Assembly (NCBI RefSeq): GCF_000188035.1
Contig: NZ_AEUY02000005.1
Coordinates: forward strand, 1,674,001 to 1,738,000
DNA length: 64,000 nt
Direction: 5' to 3'
From: Streptococcus pseudoporcinus LQ 940-04
GTDB taxonomy: Bacteria > Bacillota > Bacilli > Lactobacillales > Streptococcaceae
Notes under the pieces: model-generated
Told to the model about the DNA's origin: nothing
The model's database searches: none
The model's input: only the letters and a program-made list of their open reading frames with translations
Program-made: the position numbers and the translations under genes
Part shown: positions 9,480-61,675 of the stretch, one piece after another
How positions within the stretch are numbered: position 1 is the stretch's first letter
How the letters are laid out: each line of letters begins with the position of its first letter

Positions 9480-9920
9480 TTACAAAGGACTCTTATCTCT
9501 AAATACGAATAATTTACTTAAGACATAGTTCAATACAATAATTAATACTTGTCCCAACAGTGTTTCAATCGTGTTAACCATGTGAATATCATTTTTTACA
9601 AATTGGCCGATAAGATAAGGAAACTTCTCTACCAATAGATATGCCAAGGCGACGTCTAAAAGTAAGGTAAGTAATCTAGCAGCAAAGAACTTTATCAGAC
9701 GTTTAAACCAGCCCTCTCGTGCCTGTTTAAAGACAATAATATCATTCGTCACAAAAGCAAAAAGAATGGATATGATGCTTGCTAAAGTGGCTGATAGACT
9801 TGCCAGTGTGGTTAGGTTAAATATAATCACGCGCATAATCACGTAGACTAATGTGGTCATCACACCAAAAATCAAATATGATATAACTTCATTGTTTAAA
9901 AACTTCTTTATCACTTTCAT
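9480..9920 (-). CDS. GtrA-family membrane protein, 146 aa
   Basis: Small integral membrane protein of the GtrA/DPMS family, thought to flip or position polyprenyl-linked sugars for modification of cell-surface glycans. Four hydrophobic segments are evident (around residues 10-30, 36-60, 75-97 and 112-135), with the family-typical FVTNDIIVFK after helix 2 and NYVLSKLFVFRD at the end. A GTG sits one codon before the chosen ATG; no strong ribosome site is visible. No glycosyltransferase partner survives nearby, so it may be an orphan in a decaying region. Confidence 0.8.
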   Translation of the reverse strand: MKVIKKFLNNEVISYLIFGVMTTLVYVIMRVIIFNLTTLASLSATLASIISILFAFVTNDIIVFKQAREGWFKRLIKFFAARLLTLLLDVALAYLLVEKFPYLIGQFVKNDIHMVNTIETLLGQVLIIVLNYVLSKLFVFRDKSPL

Positions 9921-43216: not shown

Positions 43217-44878
43217 TTAACGGACCTCCATGACTACTGGAAGAATAGCTGGACGACGTTTGGTTTGTTCAAATAAGAATTTCGACAGTTCGTCACGGAC
43301 AGAGCCCTTAAGTTCTCCCCAATCAAAATTGTCTTGTTGCAAGTAATTGCCAACTGTGGTGTTGACTAATTCTGCACTTTCTCGCAAGATATCACGGCTC
43401 TTTTTGACGTAAACAAAGCCACGTGTATTGACCTTAGCTTTTGAAATAATTTTCTTTTCACGCTTATTAACAGTGATGACAACGATAAAGATCCCATCTT
43501 CTGATAAGACTTTGCGGTCACGAAGAACGATATTGCCAACATCTCCGATAGCATTCCCGTCAATCATGACGTCACTAGCGGGAATCGCACCTTCATGCAG
43601 GAAGCCTTCTTGATTGAGGACCATAATATCACCACGTTTAACAATGTAGATATTTTCTGGGAAAAGGCCTATCTCCTCAGCTAACTCAGCATGGGCTGCT
43701 AAATCACGGTATTCACCCTGAATCGGGAACAGATACTTGGGCTTGATTAAGTTAAGCATTAACTGCAAATCACGGCCATTAGCATGGCCTGAAACGCATA
43801 GATTTTGGGTAATCAGCTTGACTGACCCGCCTGCTTTATAAATAAGATTTTCAACACGCGCAACCATAGCCTCTTTGGCAACATTTGGTGTCGTTACGAT
43901 GTAGACCAGGTCACCTTTTTTGATATTTGCAAAACGATGACGGCCTATTGCCATTTTTTGCAAGGACACAATAGGCTCACCCATTCGGCCCGCTTCAAGA
44001 ATAATTAATTCCTGGTCTTCATATTGAGACATTTCTTTTGGCTTGATTAACAATTTTTCGTCAGTCAGCCTTAATTTTTTCAGACGGATAGCCGTGCGCA
44101 CAACATTTTCTACATCACTACCAGTCAAAACCACGCGTCTGCCCGAAGCTGCTGCTGAGTCAAAAACCTGCTGGATCCGGACTAAATTTGAAGCGACTGC
44201 CGCAATAATCACACGACCTTCTGCGTCGCCTATGACCTGGTTCATCTCATCACCAACTTCAGTTTCACTGGCTGTTTGCACAACCGAAGTGGCATTGGCA
44301 GATGCTGATAGTAAAGCAAGAACACCCTCTTTACCAATCTCGGCCAAACGAGCTAGGTCCGTTTGGTAACCTTCACGTGCAGCCTGGTCAAATTTAAAAT
44401 CACCTGTATAGACAATGTTTCCACGGTCTGTACCGATAACCATACCCAGAGTTTCTGGGATTGAATGGGTAGTGCTAAAGAAAGAAACCAAGCCATCTCG
44501 GAATTCAATCTCGGTTTCACTATCGACAATGTGGAAATTGTTAAATTTCTTAGTCGCATTATTGCTTTTGACAAATAGTTTAGCTAATTCAATGGTTAAC
44601 TCAGAGCCAAAAACAGGCACAGGAACTTCTGCTAACAGGTAAGGCAAGGCCCCAATAGCGTCGGCATGGCCGTGGCTTAGGAATACACCTTGTACCTTAT
44701 CTTTGTTTTCAATAAGGTAATCCAAATTAGGGATAACAAGATCTACTCCTAATTGCTCGTTCTCTGGGTATTTTAAACCAGCATCTAAGATAAAAATCGA
44801 ATCATTTATTTCTACCAAGTAGAAGTTCTTTCCATATTCACGAACTCCTCCCAAGGCGATAATTTTTATATCACTCAT
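43217..44878 (-). CDS. rnjB: Ribonuclease J2
   Basis: Metallo-beta-lactamase/beta-CASP ribonuclease for RNA decay and processing. The metal motif reads LSHGHADAIGALPYLL, with Ala where catalytic J1 has the second His of HxHxDH; this is the mark of the weakly active J2 partner. beta-CASP motifs (VVLTGSDVENV, ITQNLCVSGHANG) and the C-terminal domain ending AILPVVMEVR are complete; 553 aa. AAAGGAG precedes the ATG. J2 works with J1, encoded elsewhere. Confidence 0.9.
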   Translation of the reverse strand: MSDIKIIALGGVREYGKNFYLVEINDSIFILDAGLKYPENEQLGVDLVIPNLDYLIENKDKVQGVFLSHGHADAIGALPYLLAEVPVPVFGSELTIELAKLFVKSNNATKKFNNFHIVDSETEIEFRDGLVSFFSTTHSIPETLGMVIGTDRGNIVYTGDFKFDQAAREGYQTDLARLAEIGKEGVLALLSASANATSVVQTASETEVGDEMNQVIGDAEGRVIIAAVASNLVRIQQVFDSAAASGRRVVLTGSDVENVVRTAIRLKKLRLTDEKLLIKPKEMSQYEDQELIILEAGRMGEPIVSLQKMAIGRHRFANIKKGDLVYIVTTPNVAKEAMVARVENLIYKAGGSVKLITQNLCVSGHANGRDLQLMLNLIKPKYLFPIQGEYRDLAAHAELAEEIGLFPENIYIVKRGDIMVLNQEGFLHEGAIPASDVMIDGNAIGDVGNIVLRDRKVLSEDGIFIVVITVNKREKKIISKAKVNTRGFVYVKKSRDILRESAELVNTTVGNYLQQDNFDWGELKGSVRDELSKFLFEQTKRRPAILPVVMEVR

Positions 44879-47959: not shown

Positions 47960-48114
47960 ATGGTTATAATGAACGAGAAGGCGAAGAACAACAATATGCG
48001 GAGGAATTGTTCAAAGGAGCTATCAAAGAAGAAACCAACAAAAATTGGTACCAATGCTTGGGAGATAGCATCCAAGACCAGTGGTGGAATTTTAAAGGCT
48101 GGTTGAGAGGCTAG
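47960..48114 (+). pseudogene. C-terminal gene fragment
   Basis: An open stretch reads NEREGEEQQYAEELFKGAI and then KEETNKNWYQCLG, ending WWNFKGWLRG and TAG, without a start codon. It looks like the tail of a lost gene; I do not recognise the family. Confidence 0.35.
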
Positions 48115-48154
48115 TGACTTTCCTCAGTGACACTAATCATGCTATAATAAACCA

Positions 48155-48243
48155 TAGGGCAAACTAAAAGCGCAGTATCTAAACTACGCTAGTTCTTGCC
48201 TGCTGAACTCATACTGTAAAGGACCTGTAAAGGTCTTTTTTTG
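48155..48243 (+). ncRNA. Candidate small RNA, about 89 nt
   Basis: An extended -10 (TGC-TATAAT, 48140-48148) starts a stretch that ends in GGACC-TGTAAA-GGTC and T7 (48221-48242). Inside, GGCAA-ACTA near 48157 pairs with TAGT-TC-TTGCC near 48189-48200, with inner GC and GTA/TAC pairs, giving a long imperfect stem. No open frame and no gene downstream on that strand for 260 bases. Family unknown. Confidence 0.45.
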
Positions 48244-48351
48244 TTCACCTTTTTGTGGACTTTTGAGGGAAGTCTAAGGAAACTTAAAACCTATATTTTT
48301 TCAAAAACACAGTCATATCAAGCCTTAAGGACTGTCATCGCTCTGTAAAGA

Positions 48352-48384
48352 CTACCAAACGAAGCCCAATAATAATAACCGCAT
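48352..48384 (-). CDS. Candidate leaderless signalling peptide, 10 aa
   Basis: MRLLLLGFVW followed by TAG. AAAGGAGG (48393-48400) lies exactly 8 bases before the ATG. The gene is divergent from, and about 120 bases from, the rgg remnant. It resembles in size and composition the SpeB-inducing peptide MWLLLLFL that activates RopB and is encoded divergently from ropB. The peptide needs no export signal in that system. It could be a chance short frame. Confidence 0.5.
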   Translation of the reverse strand: MRLLLLGFVW

Positions 48385-48439
48385 AACTGGTGCCTCCTTT
48401 AATTCTTTTAACTACATCAGAAGTGAATACAGTATTAAA

Positions 48440-48468
48440 TAGACAATTTGTTACGCATTATGTACAAT
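48440..48468 (+). promoter_or_regulatory. Promoter of the rgg remnant
   Basis: TAGACA (48440-48445), 17-bp spacer, TACAAT (48463-48468), 38 bases before the ATG at 48507. Confidence 0.6.
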
Positions 48469-48506
48469 GGCAACGTATTTTTTACATTAATTAGGGAAGC
48501 TTAACA

Positions 48507-48867
48507 ATGGAACTTGGGTGAAACTGTTGAATTTATTAGGCATTCAAAAAATATTCCTATCAAACAAGTCTGCGGTGATTATCTTACAAGACAAACCTAT
48601 TACCGCTTTATCAAAAATAATCTTGATATCTCTTCCAAAAAGTTACTTTATATTTTAGACAATTTTAACGTCAACGTAGATGAGTTTTACAGCAGAGAGT
48701 TTGAAGGCTTTATCAAAGGTTTTTCTTGGCATAATGACTTTTCTTCGTTTCCACTTAATTTTGTGTCTACTTTATTATACCAAGTCCAAATACCATCGTT
48801 AGTCTTTTTTGGTGTTTTCGAGAACACTACATTCCTGTTATTGACAATCATAACAGTCAAATTATAG
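48507..48867 (+). pseudogene. Rgg/RopB-like regulator, frameshifted and truncated
   Basis: The first 60 codons encode the HTH of a Rgg-family regulator: ETVEFIRHSKNIPIKQVCGD, then LTRQTYYRFIKN and LLYILDNFNVNVDEF. ATG 48507 reads MEL and then shifts because CTTGGG has one G too many; with GG it reads MELGETVEF. After about residue 75 the frame turns into unrelated hydrophobic codons and the peptide-binding repeat domain of Rgg is absent. So the receptor is lost while the peptide gene beside it remains. Confidence 0.7.
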
Positions 48868-48912
48868 CCCTTTTAGTCATCAAAGTAATAGCTATTTTAC
48901 TTACTATCATGA

Positions 48913-49281
48913 TTAGTCACGCAGAAACAGGTGGTTAGCTACTCCTAAGCTACTGTGATGATGGAGACAATCCTTTTTGTCGTAGGCACAGTGGCCGCTG
49001 GGAGAAAATGAGCCATAATGTTCTAGGTTGTATTCTGCAGGGAGGTAGGTTGGGTCCAAGTCCAAAGCCACTCGAAAATGTTTCATGGCTAAAAGGTGGT
49101 CACCTTTTTCTTCCAGTAAGATGCCCATCAGATTATGGGGTTCAGGGAGATGAGGATTCTTTTTCATGTCATCAGCTAGCAATTCAAAACAGTCATCATA
49201 TTGTTTCTTTACAAGTAAGGCCTTGGTCTGGTTAACGAGAAACTTTCGGTCTATTTGTGTCTTTTTTACGAATCGCATCAT
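48913..49281 (-). CDS. TPR-repeat protein downstream of kdpC, 122 aa
   Basis: Small cytosolic protein with about two tetratricopeptide repeats: LLVKKQYDDCFELLADDMKKNPHLPEPHNLMG and ILLEEKGDHLLAMKHFRVALDLDPTYLPAEYNL. The C-terminal tail (SPSGHCAYDKKDCLHHHSS) is Cys/His-rich and could bind a metal. Start MMRFVKKTQ with AGAGG upstream. It follows kdpC by about 50 bases on the same strand, so it is probably co-transcribed; its role in K+ transport is unknown. Confidence 0.7.
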   Translation of the reverse strand: MMRFVKKTQIDRKFLVNQTKALLVKKQYDDCFELLADDMKKNPHLPEPHNLMGILLEEKGDHLLAMKHFRVALDLDPTYLPAEYNLEHYGSFSPSGHCAYDKKDCLHHHSSLGVANHLFLRD

Positions 49282-49332
49282 CAATACCTCTTTTTCATGT
49301 CTATTTTTCATTTTAATCACTGCGCATTTCAG

Positions 49333-49995
49333 TCAATCATCACTTGCGACCACAGCGATAGGTCTTTTAAAAGGGTGTTGGTTTAGTTCTTTCTTGATAG
49401 CCAGGTTAACTTCTAAAACAGATACCCGGTCTTCGCCTAGGAACCCCAAAACCTTTGTTGCTGTATGTGCGTTAATGATTTTCTCTAGCCTAGCTGGACT
49501 AATCCCTGTTTTTCTGGCAATACGAGGAATTTGTAGTTTGGCACTTTCGGGACTAATTTCTGGGTCTAGTCCTGAACCCGATGTTGTTACCAAGTCAGCA
49601 GGTATATCTTTCACTGAAACGGTTGGGTTTTCTTTTAGGAAAAGTGCCAGTTCCTGTTGGACCCGTGCTTTTAGTTTGGGATTACTAGGAGCCAGATTCT
49701 GGGAGCCAGAGGTAATCACAGGCCTTTGTCCACTTGCTACTTCCTCACAAGAGTAAGTGTTGTAATGAATGGCAGATGGTCTGCCATGCAGAAAAGCTGC
49801 TGACGAAAACTCTTGACCGATTAAGGCTGTTCCAATTGGTTCCTCATGCTGCTTAATCTGGCTACCATTGGCTTGGAAAGGAAAGAGAAATTGCCCCAAG
49901 CCCGTAATCAGCAAAGGATAAATGATGCCACAAACCGCCCCAAATAAAAGCGTTAAGCGGACAGGTCGTTTGATGTAACTGCATATTTTTGTCAT
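49333..49995 (-). CDS. kdpC: Potassium-transporting ATPase subunit C
   Basis: Assembly and ATP-affinity subunit of the KdpFABC pump. One N-terminal membrane helix (LTLLFGAVCGIIYPLLITGLGQFLFP), then GSxLIGQxF-like block (GTALIGQEFSSAAFLHGRPSA), ASGSGLDPEISP in the form TTSGSGLDPEISPESA and the end VLEVNLAIKKELN. 220 aa, complete. Order kdpF-A-B-C on the minus strand. Confidence 0.95.
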   Translation of the reverse strand: MTKICSYIKRPVRLTLLFGAVCGIIYPLLITGLGQFLFPFQANGSQIKQHEEPIGTALIGQEFSSAAFLHGRPSAIHYNTYSCEEVASGQRPVITSGSQNLAPSNPKLKARVQQELALFLKENPTVSVKDIPADLVTTSGSGLDPEISPESAKLQIPRIARKTGISPARLEKIINAHTATKVLGFLGEDRVSVLEVNLAIKKELNQHPFKRPIAVVASDD

Positions 49996-50114
49996 GGTTG
50001 TTGTTCATTCCTTTCATGTGCAACCTATGGAAAGTCCAGCTCTTTTAGCAAGCAAAGATAGACCATTCCTAAGCTGTTCTTTTCCTGAATGTCTTCTAGT
50101 ATTAAACTGTTTTC

Positions 50115-52184
50115 TTAGGATAAGCTCAGCAGGTGCAAAAGTGGGGCAATACCCATATCAATGATTTTGATGCCAATAAATGGGATAAGGACACCGCCTA
50201 AACCATAAATCAACATATTATGGGCCAAGACTTTTTCTGACCGTTGAGGCTTGTAGGCAACGCCCTTCATGGCAATTGGGATTAAAAGGGGAATAATGAT
50301 GGCATTGAAAATCAAAGCTGATAAAATAGCGCTGGAAGGTGTTGCTAATGCCATGATATTTAGCGCTTGCATGTGTGGAATGGCCACCATAAAAATCGCT
50401 GGAATAATGGCAAAGTATTTGGCAATATCATTAGCAATTGAAAAGGTGGTTAAAGCTCCTCGTGTCATTAATAATTGCTTTCCAATTTCAACAATATCAA
50501 GAATCTTGGTTGGATCGCTGTCTAAATCTACCATGTTAGCAGCTTCTTTGGCAGCACTTGTTCCAGAATTCATGGCAATCCCAACGTCTGCCTGAGCTAG
50601 GGCTGGTGCATCATTAGTGCCATCGCCTGTCATGGCAACCACTTTTCCTAAGCGCTGCTCTTTTTTGATGGCTTCAATTTTGTCTTCTGGCTTGCATTCA
50701 GCAATAAAGCTATCAACGCCTGCCTCTTGAGCGATGGTTGCTGCGGTAAGAGGATTATCACCGGTACACATAACGGTTTTAATGCCCATTTCTCGTAAGC
50801 GGGCAAACCGTTCAACTAATCCAGGCTTGATAGTATCTTTGAGATCAATCACGCCTAAGATAACCTGACCATCAGCTACTGCTAGAGGGGTCCCTCCCGC
50901 TGAAGCGATCCCTTCACTAATAGCCTTCAAATCTTTGGGGATCACACCACCTTTTCCTTTAATATAATGGCTGATAGCGTCTGTGGCCCCCTTACGTATC
51001 ATTCTCCCATTGGTAAAGTCAAGGCCACTCATGCGTGTTTGGGCAGTAAAATCAATAAAGGTCATGTCTGCTGAAATAGGAGGAATAATTTCCCCATGCT
51101 CTTTGGCAAGGGTAACAATGGATTTTCCTTCTGGTGTGTCATCTTGTAAAGAACTGAGCGTAGCTGCTGTCATTAGGGTCTTTTGGCTCACACCAGCAAC
51201 AGGAACAAACTGCGCTGCCATGCGATTTCCAAAGGTAATGGTCCCTGTTTTGTCCAAAATCATAGTATCCACGTCCCCACTAGATTCCACTGCTTTTCCT
51301 GACATGGCAATCACATTGAATCGTGTGACGCGATCCATGCCTGCGATGCCAATTGCTGACAGGAGGCCTCCAATCGTTGTTGGAATTAAGCACACGGTCA
51401 AGGCAACAAGGGTGGTAACTGTAATCTTGATGTGCAAAGCATTAGCAATTGGGTACAAGCTCCCAATGACTATTAAGAAGATAATGGTTAAGCTGACTAG
51501 CAAGGTATTCAAGGCAATTTCATTAGGGGTTTTCTGCCGAGAAGCGCCCTCCACCAAAGCAATCATTTTATCTAAAAAGGACTCCCCAGCACGTGAGGTC
51601 ATTTTCAATTTGAGCCAGTCACTTGCAAGGGTTGTTCCTCCTGTTACGAAGGCAAAATCACCACCAGGTTCTTTGACCACTGGAGCTGATTCTCCTGTAA
51701 TCGCCGATTCGTCAACAGAGGCAATCCCTTCAATCACTTCGCCGTCACCAGGAATCAATTCACCAGCCTTAACCAGAACGATATCCCCTTTTTGAAGGTC
51801 AGTCGCTTCAATCATTTCTTCATGAAAAGTTTGGCTGGCCTGGTCAAAATGAAGTCGGCGGGCTGTCATGTGTTCTTGTGTCTTTTTTAAACTTTCGGCC
51901 TGTGCTTTTCCTCTTCCTTCTGCAATGGATTCAGCAAAGTTAGCAAATAGTAAGGTCAAGAGCAGAATTCCTGATACTATACTGTTGTATAATTGACTGC
52001 TTTGGCTGACCTGCTGAACGCCAGCAGGGATAATCGCTAAAAAGAAGGTCAGCACAAAACCAACTTCGACCACAAACATGACTGGATTTTTAATCATATA
52101 GCTAGGACGAAGTTTTGTGACCGCCCCTTTGAGAGAACTGCGCAATATCTCTTGCGTTAAAAAATGCGTTTTCCTTGAAATCAT
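50115..52184 (-). CDS. kdpB: Potassium-transporting ATPase subunit B (P-type)
   Basis: Catalytic P-type ATPase subunit driving high-affinity K+ uptake. Phosphorylation motif [19 protein letters not shown] loop [14 protein letters not shown], hinge [18 protein letters not shown]. Membrane helices are in the usual places. Start MISRKTHF at 52184 has GAGG 6 bases upstream; an ATG four codons earlier overlaps the kdpA stop and lacks a site. About 689 aa, normal. Confidence 0.96.
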
Positions 52185-52192
52185 AATAAACC

Positions 52193-53929
52193 TCATTGTG
52201 TTAAAAATTCAGCTAAAGGGCCTAGTACAAGAGTTGGTAAGAAAGTCAAAGCTGATATTATCAGCACTACCATCCCTAAACTAAGGGTAAAGGTCCCTGT
52301 TTCTGTTTTTAAAGAGCCAAGGGAAGCATTCACAGGCGACTTCGTCATTAACGACCCAGCAACTGCCAGCTGAAGAATCAAGGTTACATAGCGTCCCAAA
52401 AACATGGCTAATCCTGTGGACACATTCCAGAAGGGAGTATTGTCTTTCAATCCTTCAAATCCTGATCCATTATTGGCAGAAGCTGAGGTAAACTGATAAA
52501 TCACTTGTGATAAACCATGAAAGCCTGGATTGCTGACACTGCTAAGCCCCGCTGGTAATAAGACTGCTAAGGCTGAAAACCCTAGAATAATCACAGGATG
52601 GACCACGATGCCTAAGGCAATTAAGGTCATCTCCTTACCTTCAATTTTTTTCCCTAGGTAAACAGGCGTCCGTCCAATCATCAACCCACAGATAAAAACA
52701 GTCAGCAAAACGTACAGCATCATATTCATTAGGCCAACACCCTTACCACCAAAGATAACATTGAGCATCATGTTCACCATAGCTACTCCGCCACTCAGAG
52801 GCGTCAAAGTATCGTGCATGTTATTCACAGAACCCGTTGTAAAAGCCGTTGTTATTTCTGTAAAGAGGCCAGACATGGGAATACCGAACCGAACTTCCTT
52901 GCCCTCCATGTTTCCCATTGATTGGTTCAAGCCCAACTGATGTAAGAATGGATTGCCTTTACTTTCTGACCACACAATAAGTGCTAAACCCGCCAAAAAT
53001 AAGAAAGTCATAACCAGCAAAAGCGGTCTTGCTTGTCTGCCTAGTTGCATAGGCATGGGATTTGAAGAAGCTTTCTGTAAGGGAGGAAGGGGATGGGATC
53101 CTTTTCTCTGCGCTGCAACCATATAGCCAAAGGCCACTAGCATTGCACCCGGCAACAACATCATTGACAGCATTTCTATAATATTGGTGATCACATTAGG
53201 GTTTTCAAAGGGAGCTGCTGAATTCGCCGCAAAAAAACCACCACCGTTGGTTCCCAAGTGTTTAATGATTTCAAGAGAGGCAACTGGCCCCATTGCAATG
53301 CCTTGCAACTTGCCCTCCAAGGTGGTCACGTCTAACTCTTTTGCCAATGTTTGAGGAACCCCTTGTGAAATAAGCACCAAGGCTCCCACGATAGAAAAGG
53401 GAAGCAACACCCGAGTAATCACACGCACAAAGTCAACATAGAAATTCCCCATGTCTTGGTATTTTCCTGAAACTCCTCTGATAAAGGCCATAGCAGCAGC
53501 ATAGCCCGAAGCAGCTGAGGTAAACATCATAAAAGTAATGACCACCATCTGACTAAGAAAAGACAAATCCCTTTCACCAACGTAATCTTGTAAATTCGAA
53601 TTGGTGATAAAGGAGATGACCGTGTTAAAACTCAAGCTGGACTCTAATGGACCCACACGGTTGGGGTTCAAAAAGAGAAAAGCTTGTGTTCGTAGAATCA
53701 CATAAGCCACTAAGGCCATAACAGCATTGGTTAAAACAAGAGCCACAGCATACTGTTTCCAAGTCATGCCTTTTTTGTCCACATCAAGCAACCTATAAAT
53801 GCCCCGATCAATAGGATCCATGATAGGATCTGCAAAGGTTTTTTGCTGGCTGGCAATATGGTAAAGGTACTTTCCTGTTGGTAATATGAGAAGACAAGCT
53901 ATTGTTAAAACAAAGATGATTTGTAACAT
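52193..53929 (-). CDS. kdpA: Potassium-transporting ATPase subunit A
   Basis: K+-selective channel-like subunit. Four selectivity-filter segments are visible, for example [48 protein letters not shown] and [14 protein letters not shown]. About ten membrane helices; 578 aa, slightly longer than E. coli KdpA. AGGAGG precedes the ATG and lies at the end of kdpF. Confidence 0.96.
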
Positions 53930-53941
53930 CTCACTTTCCTC

Positions 53942-54019
53942 CTAAAATCGCTCTGGGTGTAACAGAGCATAAAACAAATAACTGATTAAGAAGCCAAAAA
54001 TGATTCCTAATATTATCAT
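53942..54019 (-). CDS. kdpF: Potassium-transporting ATPase subunit F, 25 aa
   Basis: Single-helix lipid-like stabiliser of the Kdp complex. MIILGIIFGFLISYLFYALL and the end HPERF match the KdpF pattern (one helix, then YAL..PE.F). It ends 12 bases before the kdpA start, the usual KdpF position. Confidence 0.85.
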   Translation of the reverse strand: MIILGIIFGFLISYLFYALLHPERF

Positions 54020-54036
54020 GGTCTCACCCTCTCTTT

Positions 54037-54135
54037 CTAATCGCCTTTGAGCCGTTTGTCGCACCAGGCAATAAAGCCAAGCACCAACAGAAAACTCAGA
54101 AACAAAACAAACAACATTATGACATCTACTAGCAT
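54037..54135 (-). CDS. Small membrane peptide upstream of kdpF, 32 aa
   Basis: MLVDVIMLFVLFLSFLLVLG then FIAWCDKRLKGD: one helix with a basic end. AGGAGG lies 5 bases before this ATG (an ATG one codon earlier is too close). It ends 17 bases before kdpF. Similar short helices precede kdpF in other genomes as I recall; function unknown. Confidence 0.65.
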   Translation of the reverse strand: MLVDVIMLFVLFLSFLLVLGFIAWCDKRLKGD

Positions 54136-54189
54136 CATATCCTCCTTCAACAATGTGATTATTCTAGCACTAAAGAAATAAAGGTGGTA

Positions 54190-54227
54190 TAAAGATTAAG
54201 TATGCCAGATAAAGATAATGTAAAGAT
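54190..54227. promoter_or_regulatory. Three direct repeats upstream of kdpF: possible KdpE sites
   Basis: TAAAGAT at 54190-54196, 54210-54216 and 54221-54227, with start-to-start spacings of 20 and 11 bp, about two and one helical turns. They lie 55-90 bases upstream of the first small kdp peptide. Response regulators bind such tandem sites; binding by KdpE is inference. Confidence 0.5.
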
Positions 54228-54236
54228 TGACCCATT

Positions 54237-54272
54237 AAAAAAGCCTGAGGCAATAGGTCCTCAGACTTTTTT
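54237..54272. terminator. Terminator after kdpE
   Basis: AAAAAGCCTGAGG...CCTCAGACTTTTTT hairpin, so kdpDE and kdpFABC are separate transcription units, at least in part. Confidence 0.75.
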
Positions 54273-54321
54273 AAATAGCTGCAAAGGCATCACCTATCAG
54301 GTGAATGACATTCTGTTTAGC

Positions 54322-55047
54322 TTATTTATTGGCACCATCTTCGATTTTGACGAGACGATAACCAATGCCAATATGGGTTTGAATCATTTTGGGGTAACCA
54401 GACCCTAATTCAATTTTTTTGCGCAGCGTATTCACAAAAACCCGCAGGGCTGAGAAGTCTTCCTCATAATAGCCCCAAATTTCCTTGACAATAAAGCGAT
54501 AGGTCAAGACCCTATCGACATTCTCTGACAACAGACAAAGCAACTTATACTCAATCGGGGTCAGGTGAATTTCTTGGTCAGTAACAAACACACGATTGGA
54601 TAAAAAATCAATATGTAGCCAGCCATTGCTAAAGGCTGATGTTTCAGAACCATAGTCACCTTGTTGGTCATGTTGTTTTGCCCTCCTAAGGTTGGCTCTT
54701 AGGCGAGCTAAAAGTTCATCAGCACTAAAGGGTTTGGTCAAATAATCATCTGCCCCAGCATCAAGGGCATCAATCTTATCATTTTCTTCCCCACGGGCAC
54801 TAACAACAATAATAGGCAGTTGCGAAAAGCCACGAACCTTGTCAATAATGTCTTTGCCATCCATGTCTGGAAGACCAAGGTCCAATAATAATAGGTCTGG
54901 GAGTTGCGAAACAATCTGACGCAAGGCAGCCTTCCCTGTCTGTACTGCCACATAATGATAACCCTCAACTTCCATTGTCAAGGACAAGAGTTTGTTAATG
55001 GAAGGGTCATCTTCACAAATTAAAATCTTAACGTTTTCATTTTTCAT
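54322..55047 (-). CDS. kdpE: Response regulator KdpE
   Basis: OmpR-type regulator. Receiver domain with Asp in LLLLDLGLPDMDG, Thr/Ser in IIVVSARGEENDK and Lys in DDYLTKPFSADELLARLRANLRR; winged-helix DNA-binding domain residues about 135-235 (ALRVFVNTLRKKIE, THIGIGYRLV). 241 aa. Overlaps kdpD by 11 bases. Expected to activate kdpFABC when K+ is low. Confidence 0.93.
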   Translation of the reverse strand: MKNENVKILICEDDPSINKLLSLTMEVEGYHYVAVQTGKAALRQIVSQLPDLLLLDLGLPDMDGKDIIDKVRGFSQLPIIVVSARGEENDKIDALDAGADDYLTKPFSADELLARLRANLRRAKQHDQQGDYGSETSAFSNGWLHIDFLSNRVFVTDQEIHLTPIEYKLLCLLSENVDRVLTYRFIVKEIWGYYEEDFSALRVFVNTLRKKIELGSGYPKMIQTHIGIGYRLVKIEDGANK

Positions 55048-57682
55048 GTAATACTGGCACCCCCACTAATGGTAACGTAAAGCCAATGATAACCCCTTTA
55101 GGGATGTTGTCATGAACATAAATGGTTCCTCCATGTGCTGTAATGATACTCTTACATAGGGATAACCCTATTCCCAATCCTCTTTTACCATCAGCTGACG
55201 CATTTTCTGACGTGTAAAAAAGGTCAAAAATCTTTTCTTTTGCCTGGTCGCTAATACCAGGCCCATCGTCAGAAACCTCAACCACCAGATTCTGGTCTTT
55301 TCGCTTACTGGTCAATGTAATCCGTGACCCTTCAGGCGTGTATTTAACAGCATTATTGATGATATTAATCAACACTTGCACGATTAAGGGACCATCCATT
55401 TTGGCCATTAATAAGTCATCTGATAAGTCCAAAATAAAGTTATGGTGCTTGAGGTGTCGATCGACATGTTTCAAAGCCTCCTCAACCATCTCATCAAAAA
55501 TATTGGTGCTTAGCGAGAGGGTCATGTCATTATCCAATTTGGTAATTGACAATAAATTTTCAATCAGATTAATCAACCACATGGAGTCATCGTAGATATA
55601 GGTGGCTAATTCTGTCAGCTGCTGCTTCTCTAAGGTCTCACCCGTTTCCATCATTAATCTTGCCTGACCCGATATGCTTGTCAGTGGGGTTCGCAAGTCA
55701 TGTGAGATGGCCCTTAACAAGTTAGCCCTTAGCTGTTCTTTTTGCATTTTAAGTTCTATTTTTTGTTGTTCTTCACGTAATCTTTCTTTTTCTAAGGCCA
55801 GGGCGGCTTCTCCTAGAACAGCTAGAATCACAGATTTTTCAAATAGGTCAACGGTCGCCTTGTCATCCATTAGGATACCAATAATAGCAAAAACATGGTC
55901 CTTTTCTCTGACAGATAAATACAGGAATTTGGCAGCCGACAAGGTATTTGTTGTTGCTCCGGCTCGTTTATTATTATGTAAAACCCATTCAACCACTCCT
56001 CGCTCATTGAGCTGGTCATAGTCGGTTAAGGTCTGCAAAGACTGACTGGCGGAGAAATACTTGGGATCCTCCAAAGTGCCAGCTATTACAGGATAAATCA
56101 CCACATCACGATCCAATAATTTTTTGACTTGAACGGCTAGTTCTTCTAAAATAGCTGGAATAGTGTCTGCCTGAGACAAGCCTTTATTGGTTTGTAACAA
56201 GAGTTCTGTTCGGTAAGATTTTTCAGTAGATAATCTTGCCTGTTCTTGAATCCGTTTGATAAGACTAGAAGTGATTAAACCAGCAATCAGCATGATGATA
56301 AAGGTGATGGGATAATTAGGACTAAAGGCTACAAAGGTATAGTAGGGCTCTGTGAAAAAATAATTAAAACAAAGGACGGATAAAATAGAAGAAACCACAC
56401 TGGAGAGTTTTCCTTTTGTCCAGACGGCATTGACCTGAACCCCTAAAATATAGATGGTAATAATATTATCAACACTGAAGTTCCAGTAACGGAATAAAAG
56501 ACCCGTTAGGGTTACTAGCAGCAGCATCGCCAGTGTTTTAAGCAAGTCACTGAAAGAAAATTGCCATTTAGGAATCCAAGAAACAAAGGAAAACTTATCA
56601 TGGTAAGGCTCTTTTTTTCCTCTGGCATTGGGAATCACAAAGATATCCAAATCAGGAACAGACTGGCTAAGTACTTCCACAATATTTTCTTTAGGCCAAA
56701 TGGTTTTGTCACTGCTTTTTCCGACCACCAACTTGGAAACATGGCTCAATTTGGCATAATCAACAATCTGCTTGGACACATTGTCAGCATCCACAATTGA
56801 CACTTTGGCACCCAACTGCTCTGCCAATTCCAAGTGCTGACGTAACTTGTTATCAGCTTTCTGATTAGGAGATTCCCGATCTAAACTGCCGATATATAAG
56901 GCTGTAAAGTCTGCATTAAAAGCACTGGCTAGCCTTGAAGCGGCACGGATGACATGTGAAGCGTAGGGAGACGGTGACACACAGACCAAGACATGTTCCT
57001 TGGTTACAAGACTGGCTTTGACTTTTTCTGATCGGATAGCGCTTTGATTAATCTGATCGGCAGCCTTACGTAGAGCGATTTCTCTTAAAGCTATTAACTT
57101 TTCTTCAGTAAAAAAATGGTGTTTGGCCAGATTAGCTTGCGATTTAGCATAGATTTTCCCTTTATCCAGCCGTTCAAGTAAGTCTAAGGGCTCAATATCC
57201 ACCAATTCAATCTGATCGGCCTGATTAAAAACAGCATCTGGAATCCTCTCATTAACTTGAATTCCTGTAATGGTTTCAATCACATCATTTAAACTCTCAA
57301 TATGTTGAACATTTACAGTAGTGTAAACATCAATCCCTGCGCAAAGCAGTTCCCTAATATCTTGGTATCTCTTTTTATTGCGCGACCCAAAACAGTTCGT
57401 ATGGGCTAATTCATCCACTAAGATAATGCGTGGTTGGCGTTTTAGAGCAGCGTCAATGTCAAATTCCTTTAAGGTAATGCCTTTATACGTTATGCTTTTA
57501 GGAGATAATTGCTCAAGTCCAGCTAATAAAGCCATTGTTTCCGGTCGATTATGAGGTTCGATATAACCTGCTAACACATCTACCCCAGCTTTTTTAGCTT
57601 TCTGAGCTTCGTTAAGCATGGCATAAGTTTTTCCAACCCCTGCTGCATAGCCAAAATAAATTCTTAACTTTCCTGTTTGCAT
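55037..57682 (-). CDS. kdpD: Osmosensitive K+ channel histidine kinase KdpD, 881 aa
   Basis: N-terminal KdpD domain with Walker A YFGYAAGVGKTYAML and Walker B PRIILVDELAHTN, then a universal-stress-protein domain (VLVCVSPSPYASHVIRAASRLA). The USP domain is the binding site for c-di-AMP in some Firmicutes. Four membrane helices (about residues 385-485), a GAF-like region, then the kinase: His in RAISHDLRTPLTSISG, N-box NIINNAVKYTPEGS, G-boxes VSDDGPGIS and GKRGLGIGLSLCKSI. Full length. AGGTGGTGCTATGC-type weak site precedes the ATG. Confidence 0.95.
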   Translation of the reverse strand: MQTGKLRIYFGYAAGVGKTYAMLNEAQKAKKAGVDVLAGYIEPHNRPETMALLAGLEQLSPKSITYKGITLKEFDIDAALKRQPRIILVDELAHTNCFGSRNKKRYQDIRELLCAGIDVYTTVNVQHIESLNDVIETITGIQVNERIPDAVFNQADQIELVDIEPLDLLERLDKGKIYAKSQANLAKHHFFTEEKLIALREIALRKAADQINQSAIRSEKVKASLVTKEHVLVCVSPSPYASHVIRAASRLASAFNADFTALYIGSLDRESPNQKADNKLRQHLELAEQLGAKVSIVDADNVSKQIVDYAKLSHVSKLVVGKSSDKTIWPKENIVEVLSQSVPDLDIFVIPNARGKKEPYHDKFSFVSWIPKWQFSFSDLLKTLAMLLLVTLTGLLFRYWNFSVDNIITIYILGVQVNAVWTKGKLSSVVSSILSVLCFNYFFTEPYYTFVAFSPNYPITFIIMLIAGLITSSLIKRIQEQARLSTEKSYRTELLLQTNKGLSQADTIPAILEELAVQVKKLLDRDVVIYPVIAGTLEDPKYFSASQSLQTLTDYDQLNERGVVEWVLHNNKRAGATTNTLSAAKFLYLSVREKDHVFAIIGILMDDKATVDLFEKSVILAVLGEAALALEKERLREEQQKIELKMQKEQLRANLLRAISHDLRTPLTSISGQARLMMETGETLEKQQLTELATYIYDDSMWLINLIENLLSITKLDNDMTLSLSTNIFDEMVEEALKHVDRHLKHHNFILDLSDDLLMAKMDGPLIVQVLINIINNAVKYTPEGSRITLTSKRKDQNLVVEVSDDGPGISDQAKEKIFDLFYTSENASADGKRGLGIGLSLCKSIITAHGGTIYVHDNIPKGVIIGFTLPLVGVPVLHEK

Positions 57683-57990
57683 AGCACCACCTTAATCAAC
57701 TGATCTTCCCTTTACAAGGAAGTCATTTCTACGGTATTATTATAGTCTTGTTTTTTAATTTTCACAATAAAAGACTGTCGAAGGCTACTTTTTAGCATAG
57801 TCACTTACTAAACTTGACCTTATCTGCCTGCTTATTGGGGAGGTCAAAGCATTTTTCTAAATCGGAAAATGAGTCCTGAATGGCTGGACAGAAACCTAGT
57901 GCTTTTTTGGTTATCACTGCTTCCTATGTTGAGACAATACTTTTCTGACTTGTCTAGCTGCTTTTATGCTATGATAGGATAAAGGAGGAT
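57683..57990. other. Gene-free stretch upstream of kdpD
   Basis: Contains TATAAT on the minus strand near 57737-57742, a possible kdpD promoter. No gene seen in the rest. Confidence 0.4.
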
Positions 57991-58118
57991 GATTTGGACT
58001 AACCAGATCAATTGTCTTGCTCGCCGATTAAAACGACTTCGTTCTAGTAACCTTCCGCAAGGAAATAGTTGGCAGATGCATTAGAAATGACGTTGGGATT
58101 TTATGCCTAATTCAGCCT
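57991..58118 (+). pseudogene. XRE-family regulator fragment
   Basis: AAAGGAGG is followed by codons for NQINCLARRLKRLRSSNLPQ and, in another frame, LADALEMTLGFYA. Together they resemble the first half of a Cro/C1-type HTH (RLKRLRSS..L.Q..LADAL..T). Frame change and stop codons show decay. Confidence 0.45.
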
Positions 58119-58133
58119 GTAAGAGAAGTAACA

Positions 58134-58574
58134 CTAGCAATGACTCATCCGAAATTTTAGACAGGCTAACATTACGACGGTACTTGAGAACATTAGGACA
58201 ATAGTCATGATAGAGTCTTGAACAAATTTTTGATAATTGCTTAATATTCCATTGTAAGTGATGAGATTTACAAGTAAGTTATATTTCACTAACTCTTTCT
58301 TTAATTTGATAATTTTATCCTTACCATAACCAGTATCTTGCATCAGTTCATTATTAGGATAAATAATATAGACATCACCGTGTTTATCTACAAAATTTCC
58401 TGTTTCTTTAGCTGTTTGAAGAGATAATTTCAAACGATTATTAATTAGCATGTAGAGAAATTTTGCTTCCGCACATAATTTTTTATAATAGTTGGTTCCA
58501 ACTAAAACTTTAGGTAATTGATAATGGATTTCTGTCGCTTGGACTTGGATTAAACTTTTTCTTCCATACGCCAT
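58134..58574 (-). pseudogene. RepA N-terminal-domain replication initiator, truncated
   Basis: IHYQLPKVLVGTNYYKKLCAEAKFLYMLI and GDVYIIYPNNELMQDTGYGKDKIIKLKKELVKYNLL match the RepA_N winged-helix domain of plasmid and ICE initiators, by recognition. Only 146 codons remain; after the domain the sequence (NLITYNGILSN...) no longer looks like a RepA and the C-terminal part is gone. ATG overlaps the region 2 bases after the upstream 53-aa gene. Confidence 0.7.
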
Positions 58575-58576
58575 AT

Positions 58577-58738
58577 TTAATACCCCATTTGAAATGAGTT
58601 GAGATTACAAGCTAGCTGATTTTCTGGTGTAAAAGTGATTATCCGTTGTATTTCTAGCAGTGATATAGCAGCATCAGCTTCATATCTGGTCAATTGTCTA
58701 ACAGACATCATTTCTTGAATGAGTTCTTGTCTTGTCAT
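58577..58738 (-). CDS. Small hypothetical protein upstream of repA fragment, 53 aa
   Basis: MTRQELIQEMMSVRQLTRYE and on to NLNSFQMGY, mostly helical and charged. AAAGGA 9 bases before the ATG; stop two bases before the repA-fragment ATG. Probably an accessory gene of the replication module. Not recognised. Confidence 0.55.
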   Translation of the reverse strand: MTRQELIQEMMSVRQLTRYEADAAISLLEIQRIITFTPENQLACNLNSFQMGY

Positions 58739-58766
58739 TAAGTTTGTTCCTTTCTCTTATGTGCTT

Positions 58767-58782
58767 TAGTATTTAAATACTA
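58767..58782. promoter_or_regulatory. 16-bp perfect palindrome upstream of the repA module
   Basis: TAGTATTTAAATACTA, 28 bases upstream of the 53-aa gene. Likely operator for one of the neighbouring XRE regulators; inference. Confidence 0.45.
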
Positions 58783-58914
58783 TTGTTCAATATCTTCCCT
58801 TTTTAGATGTCAAACCCTTTGTCTCTTTCTTCCTGAATCATCTTACCCTCCTAATACATCACTCATTAACTCCGGATAAAATTCCAAGGCTATCTTTTAC
58901 CTTATAAATTGGTG

Positions 58915-59295
58915 TTACTCTATGTTTTTCCCCTTAAATGAGAGTATCGGTGTATAGTCCCCTCCTTCAGGGTAATGATAACGAATGATTTGGTTGTAAG
59001 ATTCTAATGCTTCGATAACATATCTATCCGATACGGTAATAACAATACAGTCATCCAGTGGTTGGAAGGTTAATTCCTTAAAGAAACGTTCCGCTCTGCC
59101 ATTATTTTCTAAGACTGTAAATTCCAGAGATTGTATCAAAAAATTATAGAAACAGTTATCTAAATCTTCAGTCATAATGTCTTTTCCTAGAATGTACATT
59201 TCTAGGGAACCTTTCTTAATCCCTGTTTCCTGACTAACTTGTTCTACAGTTTTATGCTTTTTAAGCATTAATTGCTTTAAACGATTTTGTAGCAC
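58915..59295 (-). CDS. Putative HTH protein, 126 aa
   Basis: NRLKQLMLKKHKTVEQVSQETGIKKGSLEMYILG reads as a degenerate XRE-type HTH; the remainder is a compact alpha/beta domain (DDCIVITVSDRYVIEALESYNQIIRYHYPEGGDYTPI). Start GTG at 59295 has AAGGAG 6 bases upstream; an ATG five codons earlier has no site. Not recognised beyond that. Confidence 0.55.
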   Translation of the reverse strand: MLQNRLKQLMLKKHKTVEQVSQETGIKKGSLEMYILGKDIMTEDLDNCFYNFLIQSLEFTVLENNGRAERFFKELTFQPLDDCIVITVSDRYVIEALESYNQIIRYHYPEGGDYTPILSFKGKNIE

Positions 59296-59387
59296 CTTCA
59301 TCTCCTTCATTAATTTGAATATCGTTATCTATCATCAAATTCTCTCCTTAATCTTTTTGAGAATAACCTGTTCTTTTTTAGCCAATT

Positions 59388-59894
59388 CTAATATACTTGT
59401 AGAATCTCTTCCTTTTGGTGATTGATAGAAGATAGCTCTTGAACCCATTTTGTCAGAATTAAGGGTTCTGCTTTTATTAAGTTAGGCTCTTTTTCATATC
59501 CCAATAGATATCCAACTGATACTCTAAAATAATCGGCTAATATCGCAGCATTCCTAGCATTAGGTATTCTAGTTCCTTGATTATAGTTTCCAATGGTAGA
59601 GTAGTTTATTCCCGTATCCTCGCTTATTTCTCTCAAGGATAATTTTCTGTCCTTGACTAGTATTTGAAATTGAGTCTCTCTAGATTCCACAGGTTCAAAC
59701 TCGGTTTCCAAACCCAATAAATACGCTGGAGAAACACCAAAATAATCCGATAGGATTTTGGCGTTTTCAAGGCTAAGATTGGTCTTTCCGTTTTCGTATT
59801 TGCCATATTGAGATTGATTAGTATTGATAACTTGTGCTAACTCAGCCTGAGTTAATCCTTTCTCTTTTTGTAGTTCTTTTAGTCGATTAGGCAT
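59388..59894 (-). CDS. Regulator with two tandem XRE HTH domains, 168 aa
   Basis: First HTH residues about 4-60 (RLKELQKEKGLTQAELAQVI ... VSPAYLLGLE), second about 74-132 (LVKDRKLSLREISEDTGINY ... VSVGYLLGYE). Such tandem Cro/C1 proteins occur in phages and integrative elements. Short C-terminal tail. Probably the control gene of this decayed element. Confidence 0.8.
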   Translation of the reverse strand: MPNRLKELQKEKGLTQAELAQVINTNQSQYGKYENGKTNLSLENAKILSDYFGVSPAYLLGLETEFEPVESRETQFQILVKDRKLSLREISEDTGINYSTIGNYNQGTRIPNARNAAILADYFRVSVGYLLGYEKEPNLIKAEPLILTKWVQELSSINHQKEEILQVY

Positions 59895-59903
59895 AGCAAG
59901 TCC

Positions 59904-60071
59904 TCACTTCAGCAAGCCCAAGTAATTAAAAATCGTATACATTGATGCCAAAGCATTTATGACAAAGAGAAACAAATCTAACAAATAAGGTTCCCTCTTG
60001 TGATAGTTACTGATAAACATGGGGTAGAAGACAAAAGCAAAACTAATGTTAAAAATAATCAATGGGCTCAT
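59904..60071 (-). CDS. Small membrane protein, 55 aa
   Basis: MSPLIIFNISFAFVFYPMFI and LLDLFLFVINALASMYTIFN form two hydrophobic helices around a short HKREP loop. TAGGAG 6 bases before the ATG. Overlaps the end of the DUF3850 remnant. Unknown function. Confidence 0.55.
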   Translation of the reverse strand: MSPLIIFNISFAFVFYPMFISNYHKREPYLLDLFLFVINALASMYTIFNYLGLLK

Positions 60072-60313
60072 TTGTCACTCCTAAAATTACATAACCATCT
60101 TTTAGACCGATAAAGTCCGATAAAATATAAGTTATTTTTCTAACAATACAGCGATAGGGATAGGTGTATCCTTTTTTTGGGATCATATTCTCTCAATAAC
60201 AGTTCATCGCCAACTTTAAAATCTCTATCGTTATAGCGATATTCAAATGTCTTTGTCCCATCCATAATGGCCTCAAAATACTCTGGATAACATTTCAGCA
60301 TGTGTTGTGTCAC
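60049..60313 (-). pseudogene. DUF3850-domain protein, frameshifted at an A7 run
   Basis: From GTG 60313 (AGGAGG upstream, 4-base overlap with the preceding gene) the frame encodes HMLKCYPEYFEAIMDGTKTF and YRYNDRDFKVGDELLLREYDP, the hallmark of DUF3850, an ASCH/PUA-like RNA-binding domain. At the seven-A run 60172-60178 the frame is lost; with six A it continues KKGYTYPYRCIVRKITYIL to a stop at 60049. Either a true mutation, a slippage site or a sequencing error. Confidence 0.65.
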
Positions 60314-60486
60314 TTCTTTTCCTCCTCTTCAGCTTCAATAAACTGAAGTTCAATAAGCTTATTACTGGGTTGTAAAAGTATACGTCTCTTCCACTCTTGC
60401 TTTGTGTGCTTTACTTTCCACAATGGAATTACACCAAATAGATATAGCCGTGCAGTATAAAGAATCTCATCGTCTCTACTCTTCAC
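60310..60486 (-). CDS. Small hypothetical protein, 58 aa
   Basis: Basic then acidic protein (KSRDDEILYTARLYLFGVIP ... EAEEEEKK). Start GTG 60486 has AAGGAGG 9 bases upstream. Coupled to the DUF3850 remnant by GTGA overlap. Not recognised. Confidence 0.5.
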   Translation of the reverse strand: MKSRDDEILYTARLYLFGVIPLWKVKHTKQEWKRRILLQPSNKLIELQFIEAEEEEKK

Positions 60487-60505
60487 AATGAGTTGCCTCC
60501 TTTTT

Positions 60506-60688
60506 TTAAATACTGATATCATAAATAATGATTAAGAAATACCAAATACTCACAAAAATAACAGGAGGATACCAAAACCAGTAAAGTGGAATGTTACGTT
60601 TCAATAGCAATAGAACTATAGGGCTATACATTAAGAGACTTACTGCTAAATCTAGCCAGAAAGTTGCCCAAATTAAAGTTGTTATCAT
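60506..60688 (-). CDS. Small membrane protein, 60 aa
   Basis: Two hydrophobic segments (ATFWLDLAVSLLMYSPIVLL and YWFWYPPVIFVSIWYFLIII) separated by KRNIPL. AAGGGAG upstream of the ATG. Typical small cargo of integrative elements; unknown function. Confidence 0.55.
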   Translation of the reverse strand: MITTLIWATFWLDLAVSLLMYSPIVLLLLKRNIPLYWFWYPPVIFVSIWYFLIIIYDISI

Positions 60689-60916
60689 TTTTCAGCTCCC
60701 TTCAGAAAAATGCGAGGAATACCTCTATGGGCATTACTACTTTTATCAAACTCTTCGATTGGTTTTTCGACCACGCTATTATCTTCATCAATTCAGGAGC
60801 ACTAGCCTTGGCCATCATTCTAACTAATAAGAATCACTATCAACCTTTGATTGAGACTAGGTACCAACATATACTAAATGAGAGATTTTATTTCCATTTC
60901 TCAAATGGGTTTACTA

Positions 60917-61108
60917 TTACTTCAGAAAGCGTATTACAGGTATCACTAGACCAGATTGATACAGAACGAAGGTTAATACCGATAAGAATAAAGCAATGGA
61001 GACTCTGTCCTTATCTACATTGGGGTCTCTGTAAAGAATAATCCCCCAGACTAGATTCAATAACAATAGTAATTGGCCGGCATATTGGCTTGTTTCAGCA
61101 AAGTTCAT
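60917..61108 (-). CDS. Small membrane protein, 63 aa
   Basis: Two helices (AGQLLLLLNLVWGIILY and VSIALFLSVLTFVLYQSGLV) around RDPNVDKDR. Start MNFAETSQ has GAGGAG 9 bases upstream; an ATG seven codons earlier overlaps the upstream gene. Function unknown. Confidence 0.55.
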   Translation of the reverse strand: MNFAETSQYAGQLLLLLNLVWGIILYRDPNVDKDRVSIALFLSVLTFVLYQSGLVIPVIRFLK

Positions 61109-61121
61109 CGTTTTATGCTCC

Positions 61122-61493
61122 TCACACATAACTCATTAACTCTGAGTTCAAGTCCAAAGTAAGCCATAAAGCTTCTTCTTGTGTGAGTTGCTTGACATGA
61201 CCCCAGGTTCCATCTCGTGAATGTTGGTAGTAGGGATAAGTACCATGTTTATTTCTAGGACTCAAATCGTGAACAATACCATTTTCAATAACTTCCCAAA
61301 GTAGACTAGAAGGTTTGTAATAATAACCATTTCTTAACCAAATTCTGTTTAGATCATCATATGGAGATGCTTTCTCTTCTTTAGGAAAAGTTTCAGAATC
61401 TGAAACAGCCACTTCTTTCTCTTCATCAAGATCTATCACTTCAAATATATCTAGAGTATCAATATCCATAACTATTTCTAAATTATTTGACAT
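61122..61493 (-). CDS. Hypothetical protein of the decayed element, 123 aa
   Basis: Acidic N-terminal half (DIDTLDIFEVIDLDEEKEVA) and an aromatic C-terminal half (WLRNGYYYKPSSLLWEVIEN ... GTWGHVKQLTQEEALWLTLD). AAAGGA upstream of the ATG. I do not recognise it. First gene of the small-gene run. Confidence 0.55.
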   Translation of the reverse strand: MSNNLEIVMDIDTLDIFEVIDLDEEKEVAVSDSETFPKEEKASPYDDLNRIWLRNGYYYKPSSLLWEVIENGIVHDLSPRNKHGTYPYYQHSRDGTWGHVKQLTQEEALWLTLDLNSELMSYV

Positions 61494-61675
61494 CTATATT
61501 TTTCCTTTCACTAGTTTTAGACAATGAAAAAAGAGAACGAAAAATTCGTTCTCTTAAGCTATAGGGTATTCAATTTTACGTTTCCCAAAACTCTAGACAC
61601 TTACTGGTTATTTCTTTTCCTACGAACTTTCTGATATGATATAATGGAGAGATTAGAAGACCGAAAGGGGAAAAC

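Follow-up and report, generated by a model that had tools for sequence, protein, structure and literature searches.

The closest described relative of the locus analyzed here is the RopB-SIP pair of Streptococcus pyogenes, which belongs to the LCP class (PMC6565748, PMC10518010). In PMC6565748, alanine at any position of synthetic S. pyogenes SIP except L6 led to loss of activity; in the W2A and F7A mutants, speB expression was drastically reduced. Section 6 of PMC10518010 describes predicted LCPs as mostly 8 to 10 aa long, some of them charged or possibly processed, and the peptides of Rgg/SHP systems as longer propeptides that are exported and cleaved; in that section, LCP pairs are reported on plasmids and ICEs and none in phages.

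Within the window, the 64,000-nucleotide stretch of Streptococcus pseudoporcinus LQ 940-04 DNA that we analyzed, the 10-codon frame MRLLLLGFVW (start codon at 48384-48382, stop codon at 48354-48352, minus strand) lies opposite to, and diverges from, a broken RopB-type gene. It is preceded at 8-base spacing by the ribosome site AAAGGAGG, and an initial annotation had placed all of these elements correctly. We searched the region 48300-48900 against 118 Streptococcus genomes and obtained matches in 13, some of which involve just the IS or satellite portions. The strongest match outside the window was in the same genome, where C1:457740-458061 is 82% identical to 48367-48687 (E ~1e-84), which bears out the relationship to RopB and SIP that had been proposed earlier. 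This resident locus (C1, ~457-460 kb), located 1.26 Mb from the fragment on the same contig, encodes an intact 279-aa RopB and a divergent frame (ATGTGG...) for MWLLLLFL, a peptide identical to S. pyogenes SIP. Beyond the resident sip lies a SpeB-like gene, so labeled from reading the ORF, and the ropB/sip locus is collinear with those of G033 and G051. Judged by the gene at 43217-44878, these are the nearest genomes to that of the window (90% and 89%; next best, 80%), and they may be S. pseudoporcinus and S. porcinus. We regard the feature as very probably a non-functional relic of a RopB/SIP pair; the truncated receptor, the chimeric peptide and the intact resident pair all support the view of the initial annotation that it may be the fossil of a related quorum circuit. 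The features are compiled in Table 1.

Table 1. Features of the ropB/sip fragment and its surroundings (positions in the window)
Feature	Coordinates	Strand	Remarks
Mosaic insertion, 13.6 kb	47965..61611		Absent from sisters G051 and G033; 47964 and 61612 are 3 bp apart in both
Satellite-phage remnant	47968..48373	+	Cargo-gene end and noncoding DNA after it; Javan482, Javan121, Javan66; G018, G091
Chimeric short frame MRLLLLGFVW	48352..48384	-	Codons 1-6 (48384-48367) from sip; codons 7-10 and stop (48366-48352) from satellite DNA
Left-join microhomology CAATAAT	48367..48373		7 bp common to sip and the G018 satellite
ropB/sip fragment	48367..48687		Six sip codons, intergenic region and ropB codons 1-60; 82%, 324 columns, vs G000:C1:457740-458061
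Shine-Dalgarno AAAGGAGG	48393..48400	-	8-base spacing to start; inherited from sip, same position in aligned intact loci
5′ remnant of ropB	48507..48687	+	DNA-binding part only; homology to RopB genes
Right-join microhomology GATGAGTTT	48679..48687		9 bp common to the ropB side and the IS
IS3-family element end, 111 bp	48679..48789	-	Upstream end and first ~18 codons of orfA; 99% to two G044 copies
kdp potassium-transport block	48791..57954	-	94% to G091; TPR-like gene, kdpC (KdpC PF02669), other kdp genes by reading

The two ends of the fragment coincide with changes of homology. On the peptide side, codons 1-6 of the short frame (MRLLLL) are those of sip with W2 replaced by R, the other five retained codons matching the resident sip, and codons 7-10 with the stop (GFVW) are read from satellite-phage DNA whose matches lie on the opposite strand. 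Matches to this DNA were found in satellite-phage records (Javan482 at 47968-48114, Javan121 at 47983-48212 and Javan66 at 48162-48337) and in related DNA of the genomes G018 (48040-48373, 80%) and G091 (48188-48372, 91%). The satellite homology reaches 48373 and so ends inside the sip homology that starts at 48367; past CAATAAT, the G018 satellite continues with sequence unlike that of the window. We considered and rejected the possibility that the left join corresponds to an attachment site of the satellite, since satellite-type sequence runs further in G018 and Javan66. Beyond the peptide, the satellite remnant is followed by an ABC-transporter gene whose reading direction leads away from the peptide. 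An adjacent target gene, as expected of a RopB-clan LCP system, is therefore missing, and no speB-like gene was found beside MRLLLLGFVW. On the receptor side, the IS end belongs to an element that is complete in G044, where its two frames, orfA and orfB, match the Pfam models HTH_Tnp_1 and HTH_21, and similar IS DNA on lactococcal plasmids carries the IS3 family label.

The fragment is itself part of a larger mosaic, composed of the satellite remnant, the ropB/sip scrap, the IS end, the kdp block, and IS and prophage scraps. The comparison with the sisters marks 47965-61611 as DNA inserted here relative to them, loss in the sisters' common line being a less simple alternative. No direct repeat of at least 10 bp was found between the insertion ends, and a 7-bp repeat was seen by eye only. 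Because the kdp block is 94% identical to that of G091 while another gene of the window's genome shows only 75% identity to G091, the block was probably acquired horizontally. The right part of the insertion (57900-61611) holds IS and prophage scraps with RepA_N/DnaD-like and CI-like genes; Javan34 matches it at 93% over two pieces, and portions of these scraps are matched in 123 of 284 genomes.

We then compared the fragment with intact ropB genes. The substitution counts and the tree are based on 11 homologues; L015 (in G085, a different Rgg matching over 38 bp) and L035 (another S. suis) were left out. G140 and S. didelphis are identical over this stretch and may be one strain, and G064, S. 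suis 2219 and G156 may likewise represent a single strain. When 56 codons are compared, the fragment shows 21 to 29 synonymous and 2 to 5 non-synonymous differences from seven RopB genes not of the S. suis type, a ratio that argues for strong selection on its lineage before breakage. The corresponding differences of the resident ropB are 13 synonymous and 0 non-synonymous against G051, and 11.5 and 1.5 against G033. The coding part of the fragment is 84 to 85% identical to ropB of several species, and the nearest sequence is that of G044 (86%). G044 also has, at L006:1282-1744, a longer sip-ropB gap with a second, diverged copy of the region preceding ropB. These figures bear on the possibility that the resident ropB/sip was recently duplicated and that the copy, the present fragment, then broke. 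Such an origin would fit the six retained sip codons, which differ from the resident ones at codon 2 only, but over the 56 codons the resident RopB shares 92% identity with its sisters and 84% with the fragment, and in the tree the fragment falls outside the group formed by the resident and its sisters, although its own placement is weakly supported (0.345) with dS near saturation. We therefore consider a recent duplication unlikely. The comparisons point to a lineage distinct from that of the resident gene, and breakage would be recent relative to the divergence of that lineage.

Whether the chimeric peptide could still act is a separate question. Exact SIP-coding DNA was found in 8 of the 284 genomes of the genus, each time at most 300 bases from ropB, and MWLLLLFL or MWLLLMFL stands beside RopB in S. 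didelphis, S. halichoeri and two S. suis. The S. halichoeri peptide (L034, ~9850-9880) is the variant MWLLLMFL, which adjoins RopB. In G075 (L009:719-1388), an exact SIP frame is closely followed by a gene with a radical-SAM-like start, identified by reading only, which suggests a different target of the same peptide. The exact chimera MRLLLLGFVW occurs in 1 of the 284 Streptococcus genomes, the window's own, and we found no mention of it in the literature. All intact RopB loci examined have MWLLLLFL or, in S. halichoeri, MWLLLMFL, and MRLLLLGFVW is absent there. Being neither conserved nor present beside intact homologues, the chimera fails as a living signal on the terms of conservation that the annotation had set for it.

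The reading that comes closest to such a signal supposes that the cell goes on producing the chimeric peptide, since the promoter region resembles a RopB target, and that its effect on the resident RopB is that of a weak agonist, antagonist or decoy. The start codon, the ribosome site and the hydrophobicity of the frame are retained, the intergenic region is like that of intact loci (its dyad-like stretch differs little from theirs in the DNA alignment), and the resident RopB is intact; a divergent ultrasmall frame behind a strong ribosome site is also what is seen in RopB-clan LCP systems. Transcription and translation of MRLLLLGFVW are thus possible. A promoter scan returned three sigma-70-like sites against 2.1 expected by chance; in the gap, the peptide's strand had none of them, although such a scan is no proof. 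Against this reading, the W2 and F7 that S. pyogenes SIP needs for activity (PMC6565748) are R and G in the chimera, which also carries two extra residues and is confined to a single genome; signaling through RopB would therefore be unlikely. The resident RopB retains the SIP-contacting and pH-sensing residues H144, N152, F155, Y182, E185, R188, N192 and M267 and should thus demand authentic SIP. An Rgg/SHP-type propeptide is not found either, the frame having just 10 codons from start to stop. We consider an action of the chimera on the resident RopB very unlikely, and we give equally little credence to the broader idea of a recombination-born, 10-residue leaderless pheromone that would still be translated under the sip signals and reach the resident RopB or neighbors as an altered signal or a decoy. 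The suggestion that the peptide still signals is thus not upheld, its last four residues being satellite-derived. We infer that MRLLLLGFVW probably has no signaling role, and it does not constitute a separate peptide system.

The receptor gene is broken in two ways. In the assembled sequence, its ATG frame at 48507 stops after four codons, and a RopB-like reading then follows in a different frame at 48520-48687, where, past the frame break (~codon 4), all 56 alignable codons show homology to RopB. The homology is then cut after codon 60, at 48687, with IS DNA beyond, and the C-terminal TPR domain that binds the peptide in RopB-clan LCP receptors is absent. The initial annotation was right about the broken receptor and its missing peptide-binding domain, but to the frameshift near the start that it named, truncation has to be added as a cause of the loss. 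We searched the whole genome for the missing C-terminal half with the Rgg_C and RGG_Cterm models, and only the resident RopB and another Rgg were matched. This other Rgg (L001:1465-2330; C1, ~1413-1414 kb) is listed as a pair of ORFs (82 and 205 aa) that overlap, while a homologue in L015 is a single ORF of 319 aa; the gene is possibly broken as well. In the ORF list, the RopB-like reading lies within a TTG-start ORF of 117 aa (48514-48867). One could imagine that this truncated regulator, a DNA-binding part with an IS-encoded tail, is made and interferes with the resident RopB at shared operators, as the 56 retained codons preserve the RopB DNA-binding sequence. However, a profile search of the 117-aa frame gave no Pfam domain at threshold, the native start is out of frame and the dimerizing C-terminal part is absent, and we hold this to be highly improbable.

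A short ORF behind a ribosome site is by itself not beyond chance. In dinucleotide shuffles of the window, 23 of 200 held a comparable frame, defined as an ATG frame of 7 to 12 aa, at least 80% hydrophobic and 5 to 11 bases behind GGAGG; the window itself has three frames of this length, among which MRLLLLGFVW alone is hydrophobic. The significance of this frame comes instead from its homology to the resident ropB/sip region, and its base-for-base alignment with sip inside that match leaves a negligible probability that, as the shuffles would allow, it is a chance frame unrelated to SIP.

We also asked whether related pairs occur on mobile elements. Only two RopB relatives were found in phage records, at 24% and 21% identity, and the 34 in plasmid records were all below 60%. 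Exact SIP-coding DNA was present in 12 viral_contigs stretches; we took these occurrences as chance, because a ribosome site of the form AGGAG, GGAGG or AAGGA was absent from all 12 and a tblastn search for RopB matched none of them. A phage-borne RopB/SIP system was rejected, as no RopB relative was detected among 77 candidate viral_contigs stretches. A literature search found no satellite phage linked with RopB in Streptococcus.

To account for the relic, we propose that a second-lineage ropB/sip module was carried into, or assembled within, the 13.6-kb mosaic insertion. An illegitimate join at a short shared sequence would have connected sip codon 6 to satellite-phage DNA on the left, and a second one would have connected ropB codon 60 to the interior of the IS3-family element on the right. 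The left join may have left an open frame by accident, such that the sip ribosome site now precedes MRLLLL+GFVW. The homologies, the two joins with their shared bases, the lack of the insertion in both sisters, the intact resident pair and the loss of the receptor domain are direct observations; the order of events and the horizontal origin we infer. The locus would thus represent a leaderless-peptide quorum module that was carried in a mosaic insertion and dismantled while a working copy was kept in the genome. The fusion of a ropB/sip piece to satellite DNA fits movement of such modules between species, although here only a scrap is present. The locus also calls for caution, in that a perfect ribosome site and a hydrophobic mini-frame beside an rgg gene are insufficient to call a signal.

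Compared with the S. pyogenes RopB-SIP system as described in PMC6565748 and PMC10518010, the fragment has the same divergent layout, the sip start and ribosome site, and codons 1 and 3-6, and by homology it shares the intergenic region and ropB codons 1-60. It differs in W2R, in residues 7-10, which come from other DNA, in a receptor that is frame-shifted and lacks its C-terminal domain, and in having no target gene beyond the peptide. To the resident ropB/sip/speB-like locus it is related at 82% DNA identity over 48367-48687, but that locus, unlike the fragment, has an intact pair (279 aa, MWLLLLFL) and shares synteny with G033 and G051. Streptococcal satellite phages (Javan121, Javan482 and Javan66) have source-type DNA for 47968-48373, a stretch that takes in the final codons of the short frame, and they are unlike the fragment in that RopB relatives in the phage and viral collections reach no better than 21 to 24%.
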